A stretch of 64,000 nt of DNA from an uncultured Actinomycetes bacterium (GTDB taxonomy: Bacteria > Actinomycetota > Actinomycetes > Nanopelagicales > Nanopelagicaceae): positions 1 through 64,000 of the forward strand of contig CAILXX010000017.1 of the NCBI GenBank assembly GCA_903838295.1. The letters are read 5' to 3'. The translations under genes were made by a program, and so were the position numbers. The notes under the pieces were generated by a model that searched no databases, was not told where the DNA came from, and was given only the letters and a program-made list of their open reading frames with translations. Shown in pieces: positions 650 through 50,286 of this stretch; the first letter of the stretch is position 1; each line of letters starts with the position of its first letter.

Positions 650-711
650 CGCGAGAACTTTGATGCAAAGTAGTCGCAATTTCTACATACCAAACCCCTT
701 TGCTAGAGTTC

Positions 712-832
712 CTTTTGGTCAAGAGCATCGACATATAGCCCCGGCTCGTCGATCAGCAACCCTCCTCCGCGGTGGGGTGCTCCGGGTGAGGACCAGGCCA
801 GAAAGTCTGGCAAGCGCGGGCACACAGCCCCG
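712..832 (+). promoter_or_regulatory. SAM-IV riboswitch
   Basis: The segment GCAACCCUCC–CGCGGUGGGGUGCUCCGGGUGA–GACC (756-794) matches the SAM-binding core of the actinobacterial SAM-IV class as I remember it. Supporting helices are P1 UUGGUC (715-720) with GACCAG (791-796); a P2 arm AUCGAC/GUCGAU enclosing AGCCCCGGCU, the expected pseudoknot loop; and a 3' hairpin CCAGA-AAG-UCUGG (798-810). A further stem CAGAGC-AUU-GCUCUG (840-854) ends 2 nt before the ribosome site GAAAGG (857-862). There is no U-run, so control of translation is more likely than termination. It precedes an amino-acid ABC transporter, so the operon is probably shut off when SAM is plentiful. Confidence 0.88.
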
Positions 833-871
833 TATTTAGCAGAGCATTGCTCTGTTGAAAGGTTGTCTCTC

Positions 872-1714
872 ATGAAGATGAAATATGGAATCGCACTCGT
901 AGTCACTGCCCTAGTTGGATCACTTTCAATCGGCTATACAGCATCGGCCGCAAATGCAGCTGGTGCTTGTAAGCCTGGGGCACTTTCTACTCTTACGGCA
1001 GGAACTCTTACCATCGGAACAGATGATCCGGCTTACTCTCCTTGGTTCGACAACAACAAGCCAGCAGACGGCAAAGGGTTTGAATCTGCTGTCGCATACG
1101 CAGTTGCAAAGCAACTGGGTTATTCTGCTAATAAAGTGAAGTGGGTTAAAGCTTCATTTAATACCGTCATCCAGCCTGGTAAGAAAGCTTTCGACTTCGA
1201 CATCAACGAAGTTTCAATCACACCCGAACGTGCGAAAGCAGTTGACTTCTCGACCGGATATTACGATGTTGCACAAGCTTTGGTCACCACAACCAAGTCG
1301 AAGATTGCTAAAGCAAAGTCGGTTGCCGATCTTGCTAAGGCAAAGTTGGGGGCTGCTGTAGGTACGACGTCATACTCAACAATTACTGATGTCATCAAGC
1401 CAAAAGCAAAGCCTTCAGTGTTTGATACCAATGACATTGCAACTCAAGCTTTGATCAATGGTCAGATCGATGGACTTGTCCTTGACCTCCCAACCGCATT
1501 CTATGTATCTGCCGCTGCGCTTAAGAATGGATTGATCGTTGGTCAATTCGCTCCAAAGGCAGGAAGCGAACAATTTGGTTTGGTACTCAGCAAGGGAAGT
1601 GCGCTCACTTCTTGCGTATCCACTGCTGTTGATGCTCTCCGTGCAAACGGAAGTCTCAAGACGCTTGCATCAACCTGGTTGGGTAATACCGCCGGAGCGC
1701 CTGTACTCAAGTAG
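872..1714 (+). CDS. Amino-acid ABC transporter, substrate-binding protein (methionine or sulfur compound predicted)
   Basis: Extracellular solute-binding protein, family 3 (polar amino acid type), 280 residues. It begins with a signal peptide (residues 1 to about 29, MKMKYG then a hydrophobic stretch and TASAANA). The binding domain spans roughly 42-270 and includes GTDDPAYSPW and a typical ITPERAKAVDFS motif. Two Cys (33 and 248) could form a disulfide; there is no good lipobox. The ATG at 872 was preferred over the TTG at 863 because GAAAGG lies 9 nt before it. It is first in an operon with permease and ATPase, under a SAM-IV riboswitch. That control points to methionine or another reduced-sulfur amino acid as substrate; the family alone does not decide it. 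Confidence 0.93.
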   Translation: MKMKYGIALVVTALVGSLSIGYTASAANAAGACKPGALSTLTAGTLTIGTDDPAYSPWFDNNKPADGKGFESAVAYAVAKQLGYSANKVKWVKASFNTVIQPGKKAFDFDINEVSITPERAKAVDFSTGYYDVAQALVTTTKSKIAKAKSVADLAKAKLGAAVGTTSYSTITDVIKPKAKPSVFDTNDIATQALINGQIDGLVLDLPTAFYVSAAALKNGLIVGQFAPKAGSEQFGLVLSKGSALTSCVSTAVDALRANGSLKTLASTWLGNTAGAPVLK

Positions 1715-1744
1715 TTTGATCTCCTATGAGTAACGGAAGACCCG

Positions 1745-2593
1745 ATGTCCTATGAACCATCAGCGTTGCGACTGCAACGCGAAGAGGCTAGGCGTCGGGT
1801 CTCCCGTCATTCAACGGTCGTTGCACTATTAAGCACGCTTGCGATTGGGGCGGTTCTTGCAATCGTTATTACTGGCGCCCCCGGCTTCAAATTAGTCCGC
1901 GAATCATTTTTTAATCCGCATTATGCACGTACGGCCTTCCCCAGCGTTCTTTCGGGGTTGTGGCTCAACCTTCGGGTGATGATTGTTGCCGAAATCTTTG
2001 TTTTGATATTTGGGTTGCTGATTGCACTTGCCCGAACTTCCAAATCACCGATCCTCTATCCCGTACGGCTATTAGCCACCATCTATACCGATATTTTTCG
2101 TGGTTTACCACTTTTGCTGGTCTTGCTCCTTGTTGGCTTAGGAGTTCCGGGGCTGCAGATTTCTTGGTTACCAAATTCGGCAGTGACGCTTGGCACTATC
2201 TCTTTGATTCTTACTTACTCGGCTTATGTAGCCGAAGTAATCCGCGCCGGAATCGAAGCCGTCAATCCCGCACAGCGAATGGCCGGACGTGCCTTGGGTC
2301 TATCGCAGTCACAAACACAGAGATATGTGATCCTTCCACAAGCGTTACGTAAAGTAACCCCACCATTACTCAATGATTTAGTTTCACTTCAAAAAGATTC
2401 TGGCCTGATATCTGTACTGGGTGCAATTGATGCGATTAGAGCCGCAGGAATTGAGACTGCACAGTCTTTTAACTTCACGCCTTATCTTGTTGCAGGTGCA
2501 CTCTTTGTTGCGCTGACAATACCTTTGACTCGCTTCACAGACTGGCTGACTCGTAAGCAAGACCGGGCTCGCGTCCAACAGGGACAGTGGTAA
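1745..2593 (+). CDS. Amino-acid ABC transporter permease
   Basis: Inner-membrane subunit of the polar amino acid ABC family, 282 residues. A cytoplasmic N-terminal 25 residues rich in Arg precede about five to six membrane segments. The ATPase-contact EAA loop is visible at about 178-205 (AGRALGLSQSQTQRYVILPQ). It sits 30 bp after the binding protein and ends inside the start region of the ATPase gene, so the three are co-transcribed. A single permease gene implies a homodimeric channel. Confidence 0.93.
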   Translation: MSYEPSALRLQREEARRRVSRHSTVVALLSTLAIGAVLAIVITGAPGFKLVRESFFNPHYARTAFPSVLSGLWLNLRVMIVAEIFVLIFGLLIALARTSKSPILYPVRLLATIYTDIFRGLPLLLVLLLVGLGVPGLQISWLPNSAVTLGTISLILTYSAYVAEVIRAGIEAVNPAQRMAGRALGLSQSQTQRYVILPQALRKVTPPLLNDLVSLQKDSGLISVLGAIDAIRAAGIETAQSFNFTPYLVAGALFVALTIPLTRFTDWLTRKQDRARVQQGQW

Positions 2594-2595
2594 CC

Positions 2596-3345
2596 GTGTC
2601 CAAAATAATGTTGGAGATAAACTCGCTCCGTAAGAGTTATGGTAGCGACCTAGTGCTCAAGGAAATATCAACTTCACTTGCCGAACACGAAGTCAAGGTA
2701 TTGATTGGAGCAAGTGGGTCAGGAAAATCAACTTTGCTTCGCTCGATAAATCTATTAGAAGGTATCGATGATGGTCAGATTTTCCTTGATGGTCAAGATA
2801 TTACTGAAGTCGGAATCAATCCCGATGAGGTCCGCTCGCAAATTGGTTCGGTCTTCCAATCCTTCAATTTATTCCCCCACCTTAATGTTCTGCAGAACAT
2901 CACGCTTGCTCCACGATTTGTACATGGGGTCGCCAAGGAGATCGCAGTTACCGAGGCCATGGGCCTTCTAGAGAGATTTGGTCTGGGTGACAAGGCGAAG
3001 CAGTACCCTGACTTGCTTAGTGGTGGTCAGCAACAGCGCGTAGCGATTTTGCGTGCGGTAATCACCCGACCAAAAGTTTTGCTACTTGATGAGGTAACTA
3101 GCGCGCTGGATCCAATTTTAATCGCAGAAGTCTTGTCTCTGATCAGCGAGCTTAAAGGTGAAGGCATGACCATGATGATTGCTACCCACGAAATGGGCTT
3201 TGCCAAGCGAGTTGCTGACCAAGTGCTCTTCCTGCACCAGGGAGAAATATTGGAGTCTGGCACACCACATACAATTCTCGAAAGCCCTGACACGCCAGAA
3301 TTGAAAGAATTCCTTAATGCCTTACGTGATGCCGGGCGTTTATAG
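2596..3345 (+). CDS. Amino-acid ABC transporter ATP-binding protein
   Basis: Cytoplasmic ATPase of the transporter, 249 residues. It has Walker A GASGSGKST (about 38-46), Q-loop FQSFNLFPH, signature LSGGQQQR, Walker B LLLDEVTSALD and switch His in ATHEMGF. The GTG at 2596 was chosen because GGGAC (2581-2585) is at workable distance; a GTG at 2587 would overlap the permease by 7 bp and is the alternative. It is the last gene of the riboswitch operon and ends facing the RNase H fusion gene 15 bp away. Confidence 0.92.
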   Translation: MSKIMLEINSLRKSYGSDLVLKEISTSLAEHEVKVLIGASGSGKSTLLRSINLLEGIDDGQIFLDGQDITEVGINPDEVRSQIGSVFQSFNLFPHLNVLQNITLAPRFVHGVAKEIAVTEAMGLLERFGLGDKAKQYPDLLSGGQQQRVAILRAVITRPKVLLLDEVTSALDPILIAEVLSLISELKGEGMTMMIATHEMGFAKRVADQVLFLHQGEILESGTPHTILESPDTPELKEFLNALRDAGRL

Positions 3346-5216: not shown

Positions 5217-5288
<72 letters not shown>

Positions 5289-50185: not shown

Positions 50186-50286
50186 CATTTCTCAGTTCTC
50201 ACACATTAGGAAATGGATCTTCGATCGAAGTTCACGGAACTTGGTCCGTAAACCACTACCGAGGACCGATTTACTAAAGTGAGAAC
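50186..50286 (-). promoter_or_regulatory. Structured rpsO-pnp intergenic RNA
   Basis: An outer 8-bp inverted repeat (GTTCTCAC 50195-50202, GTGAGAAC 50279-50286) encloses several inner ones: CTTCGATCGAAG (50219-50230), AAGTTC-ACG-GAACTT (50228-50242), and an interleaved pair GGTCC/GGACC (50243-50247, 50263-50267) with GTAAA/TTTAC (50248-50252, 50270-50274). CATTTC/GAAATG (50186-50191, 50210-50215) overlaps the pnp ribosome-site region. This resembles the double-stranded processing sites known between rpsO and pnp in other bacteria. Confidence 0.7.

Follow-up and report, generated by a model that had tools for sequence, protein, structure and literature searches.

What does a polar amino-acid importer carry when its operon lies directly behind a SAM riboswitch, and how would the riboswitch control it? 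The locus that poses this question is found near the beginning of the window, i.e., the whole 64,000-nucleotide stretch analysed here, from an uncultured actinomycete of the family Nanopelagicaceae. A sequence-only reading had recognized a SAM-IV element ahead of the operon and, from the SAM control, had guessed at a sulfur amino acid as the cargo.

The identity of the element was borne out by a covariance search (Rfam cmscan), which gave a full-length match (1–116) to RF00634 at 717–822 on the forward strand, with E 1.8e-17 and a score of 101.5 bits (gathering score, 38 bits). The window aptamer keeps all helices (among them P1, 717–720/791–794, and P5, 797–802/806–811) and both pseudoknots, PK-1 (740–744/782–786) and PK-2 (767–770/816–819), and its architecture matches the cryo-EM structure of SAM-IV, which served as reference for the topology (P1, P2, P3, P5, PK-1, PK-2; PMC6890682). 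In an alignment of 27 SAM-IV elements, 97.9% of the cells in P1, P2, P3, P5 and the two pseudoknots were paired, compared to 32–47% when the partners were slid along the same alignment; for PK-2, which joins the P3-side loop to the 3′ end, the figure was 97.1%. Compensatory changes occurred at 13 pairs, including two of the four PK-2 pairs, and covariation was present in all variable helices. Judged from sequence conservation, 717–822 is a genuine, conserved SAM-IV riboswitch upstream of an amino-acid importer operon; by analogy with its class, it would bind SAM and turn expression off. As an aptamer it shows no difference from the class, whose usual targets are met genes, whereas the target here is an amino-acid ABC importer, beside those usual genes. 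The other RNA elements that cmscan located in the window, all on the reverse strand, were RNase P class A RNA (280–632), a tRNA (5217–5288) and an Actino-pnp element (50213–50270).

Directly downstream of the aptamer, at 872–3345 on the same strand, we found genes for an amino-acid binding protein (SBP_bac_3; 872–1714, with a signal peptide from the ATG at 872; PF00497, 75.4 bits), a permease of the polar amino-acid type (1745–2593; PF00528, BPD_transp_1; TIGR01726, 59 bits with a cut-off of 42) and an ATPase subunit (ABC_tran; 2587–3345; PF00005, 111.7 bits). The joint presence of SBP_bac_3, an HEQRo-type permease and an ABC ATPase places the system in the PAAT family (family 3), as the sequence-only reading had it. 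None of the substrate-specific (equivalog) NCBIfam models reached its cut-off for the binding protein, permease or ATPase. The best model for the binding protein was Lys/Arg/Orn (92.5 bits, cut-off 256), followed by the cystine binding protein (73 of 312), while the permease was closest to the cystine permease (108 of 300) and the ATPase to GlnQ (262 of 379); the MetN model gave 175 bits, below its cut-off of 499.7. The AlphaFold2 model of the binding protein (pLDDT 86.7) was of no help in assigning a substrate, matching many family-3 binding proteins without discrimination; the solved structures closest to it have Arg, Gln or Lys as ligands.

An alignment of the binding pocket with E. coli HisJ, ArgT, GlnH and TcyJ was more informative on the backbone of the ligand than on its side chain. 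Since the backbone contacts are conserved, R120 and D205 aligning with the α-carboxylate and α-amino ligands of HisJ/ArgT, the ligand is expected to be an L-α-amino acid. Fold, operon order and these contacts are shared with the known PAAT systems (HisJ/ArgT, GlnH, TcyJ), but the side-chain subsite is unlike that of HisJ, ArgT or GlnH, and the chain has one extra residue inserted before Pro53. One strand of the subsite (I-N-E/Q-V) resembles TcyJ, a likeness in sequence that may be a weak hint of cystine; short-peptide searches gave no support to N-Q-V as a diagnostic cystine pocket motif. All in all, models, fold search and pocket alignment do not discriminate between methionine, cystine and basic amino acids. 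Only two SBP_bac_3 proteins were found in the window genome, and the only other SBP_bac_3 operon, on contig C4, lies next to a kynureninase-like gene; a relative of that second operon, in genome G003, stands beside an mmuM gene.

A better guide to the cargo came from the company that the riboswitch keeps. In a survey of 80 genomes (the window's own and relatives), SAM-IV was found in 60, including 49/49 of the same family. In 21 genomes of the family SAM-IV is immediately followed by the orthologous operon of three genes (complete, or truncated at a contig end), and four further MAGs from a species-genome collection carry the same arrangement. The operon is absent from about half of the genus, and a single origin of the SAM-IV-bearing binding proteins was not rejected (p-AU 0.385). 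The window genome has two SAM-IV elements, one on the importer operon and one on metY-metX. In genome G045 the two units adjoin, in the order SAM-IV, binding protein, permease, ATPase, FGase-family gene, SAM-IV, metY, metX, and G047 has, at a contig end, another SAM-IV after the SAM-IV-transporter block. This linkage of the importer operon with SAM-IV and metY-metX speaks more strongly than anything else for a cargo from sulfur amino-acid metabolism. The earlier guess at a sulfur amino acid is partly borne out by it, and a cargo of the sulfur amino-acid class, methionine first, is the best-supported reading.

Other genes also follow SAM-IV elements in the surveyed genomes. In two operons from other genera (L094 and L103) a PF05013 gene (N-formylglutamate amidohydrolase family) comes after the ATPase, and genes of similar length are found in L100, L101 and L105. 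In L039 the gene after the ATPase, in the same orientation, encodes a NicO nickel/cobalt transporter and may be governed by that operon's SAM-IV; similar-length genes occur in L050, L069 and L072. Weaker SAM-IV matches (47–68 bits; L045, L059, L061, L087, L088, L108, L109 and L110) are possibly a divergent SAM-IV-like group; the genes downstream of them encode an HD-domain phosphohydrolase, TPR proteins, a dual-specificity phosphatase and proteins of unknown function, some with weak matches to phage families.

The window genome is 99.3% complete, and gene absences were established through family searches. These found no PF01507 (CysD/CysH), no MetQ (PF03180), no MetE (PF08267, PF01717) and, for MetH, neither PF02965 nor a long PF02574 frame. 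MetX and metY are present, and a single PF02574 protein of 292 residues has as its best model betaine-homocysteine S-methyltransferase (283 bits, cut-off 338). The betaine-homocysteine-methyltransferase-like gene lies on contig C6 near sarcosine/dimethylglycine-oxidase-like and cysK-like genes, in the stretch L232:4767–10262. Methionine auxotrophy, as argued from the lack of MetH and MetE, is ruled out in that form by this protein and the oxidase-like gene nearby; because metX, metY and the methyltransferase-like protein are all there, the genome is not clearly that of a methionine auxotroph. Import of S-methylmethionine, as deduced from a stand-alone homocysteine methyltransferase, is likewise weakened, the enzyme here most resembling the betaine type and the MmuM-type proteins occurring in MetH-bearing relatives. 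Within the genus, loss of MetH went along with presence of the transporter (6/6 vs 12/25, Fisher p 0.03; in a strict set, 4/4 vs 11/23, p 0.11), but these counts are not independent, because several of the MetH-less genomes are close relatives. Dependence on external reduced sulfur, which the sequence-only reading had ascribed to such bacteria, is plausible for the window genome, given the lack of PF01507 and, if its presumed placement in the acI lineage is right, the absence of sulfate assimilation there (PMC5301498).

The reading we favor, and consider rather probable, is that SAM-IV represses, at the level of translation, a polar amino-acid importer of methionine (most likely) or a close reduced-sulfur amino acid. 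There is a reasonable minority chance that the cargo is instead cystine, cysteine or another reduced-sulfur compound, with SAM serving as a readout of total sulfur status: the model rankings of permease and binding protein, the TcyJ-like pocket strand, and a genome lacking PF01507 but endowed with a cysK-like gene all lean that way, whereas the cystine models stay far under their cut-offs, the N-Q-V likeness is not diagnostic and the linked genes are methionine genes. We consider it unlikely that SAM control was acquired, whether by accident or in the service of nitrogen supply, by a general importer of basic or polar amino acids. The Lys/Arg/Orn model, the Arg-, Gln- and Lys-binding structures and the lack of SAM-IV at orthologues outside the clade would fit such an importer, but likenesses of this sort come with the fold in general, and SAM-IV and the metY-metX linkage recur in the family.

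A modified methionine (such as S-methylmethionine or N-formyl/N-acyl methionine) that is turned into methionine inside the cell seems very unlikely to be the cargo. That L094 and L103 carry a PF05013 gene after the ATPase would suit this idea, as would the homocysteine S-methyltransferase family proteins found in most of the clade; against it, the window operon lacks the PF05013 gene and the genome's own PF02574 protein resembles the betaine enzyme, not MmuM. A broader scheme, in which the betaine-homocysteine-methyltransferase-like enzyme has replaced MetH, the importer brings in a modified sulfur amino acid such as S-methylmethionine (in operons with the FGase gene, N-formyl/N-acyl methionine), PK-2 re-pairing switches the importer and repeated excision of the aptamer in relatives frees uptake from SAM, strikes us as distinctly improbable. 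Finally, the loss of the aptamer in four relatives implies that control is dispensable, and the window element might itself be a degenerate riboswitch that no longer governs the operon; this is hardly credible for an aptamer of 101.5 bits with every helix and both pseudoknots intact. Points that do weigh against the reading we favor are the SAM-IV-free orthologues elsewhere, the four losses, the patchy occurrence of the operon in the genus, the sub-cut-off equivalog scores and the modelling results on the switching helix and ribosome-site exposure given below.

The four orthologues without SAM-IV are in G016 (L193), G020 (L194), G008 (L195, on the same contig as L123) and at L119. Leaders L193 and L194 keep the promoter-like element GCTAGNGTT and GAAAGG; in L193, GGCGCGGTC runs straight into CACACGCCCCGTAATTT, a sequence like the one normally found after the aptamer, while L119 keeps GGTCA and GATGACC, possible remnants of P1. 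All four retain flanking leader sequence, promoter-like and ribosome-site parts included, and differ in their junctions. Because the aptamer-less rows fall inside the SAM-IV clade of the tree, independent losses are the simplest reading, and in the assembled sequences these do look like independent natural riboswitch losses. SAM-IV was absent from every orthologue tested outside the freshwater clade, at about 60% identity and from Streptomyces, Actinoplanes, Nocardioides, Kribbella and other genera, and no substrate clue was seen in their neighbour genes.

How the aptamer would act on the operon can be read in part from the leader. A promoter-like extended −10 element, TGCTAGAGT (701–709, forward strand), was recognized through the conservation of GCTAGNGTT in most window-clade leaders, 8 nt ahead of P1; the RNA 5′ end was accordingly placed near 716. 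Between 600 and 1000, a strict scan found no sigma-70 promoter of consensus type, nor was an intrinsic terminator found there. The stem noted earlier at 840–854 is indeed there: the hairpin CAGAGC-ATT-GCTCTG, with 95.2% of the cells paired in 11 leaders, abuts the ribosome-binding site GAAAGG (857–862), 9 nt ahead of the ATG. Because of this pairing at the ribosome site and the lack of a terminator, translational control, as previously suggested, is likely, even though the modelled exposure of the site is mixed among leaders.

For the switch itself we have a proposal. The segment 814–821, which contains the PK-2 3′ strand (816–819), can pair with 827–833 (GCCCCGU), forming a helix (814–833) that excludes PK-2; 98.6% of its cells are paired in 11 leaders, with one compensatory change. 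Because the pairing in the window leader was not above that of shuffled leaders (plain composition shuffles), we only infer that the PK-2 strand re-pairs downstream. The idea that this pairing exceeds chance was dropped for the window clade and the metY leaders, where the shuffle counts were not low; low counts (0–7/100) were confined to L039, L050, L064, L069, L072 and L101. In the group of L039, L050, L064, L069 and L072, the purine-rich ribosome site has a further possible pairing partner, a GUCCUU segment. When PK-2 was forced in the window leader, the model allowed ACAGCC to pair with GGUUGU across the 840–854 hairpin, and modelled exposure of the ribosome site fell from 0.40 to 0.25, other leaders giving mixed results. 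With SAM bound, then, the aptamer with PK-2 would hold and the leader would close over the ribosome site; at low SAM, the PK-2 3′ strand could pair with GCCCCGU, the ribosome site would open and uptake would rise together with metY-metX.

MetNIQ is a methionine-related ABC importer under SAM or methionine control, and in this it resembles the window system. Its binding protein belongs to an unrelated family, the one in the window being PF00497. Closer in circumstance is SAR11, another streamlined aquatic bacterium devoid of sulfate assimilation, where SAM riboswitches act on methionine supply by controlling metY, bhmT and mmuM (PMC5069961); there, however, the targets are enzymes and no importer, and the classes are SAM-V and SAM-II instead of SAM-IV. 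The riboswitch scan in the acI genome paper was limited to models for thiamine, FMN and cobalamin (PMC5301498) and would have missed an importer under SAM control. In the literature searched, which covers subscription journals thinly, we found no description of SAM-IV repeated on this importer and lost in four relatives; the parts are of known kinds, and the combination is new as far as that literature shows.

For the cell from which the window derives, our results imply that methionine, or a sulfur amino acid like it, is probably imported only when SAM is low. What SAM control over uptake is worth could be gauged in the relatives without the aptamer, which provide a natural comparison, and the system as a whole suggests how abundant freshwater actinobacteria devoid of sulfate assimilation may obtain their sulfur, a route that can be put to the test.
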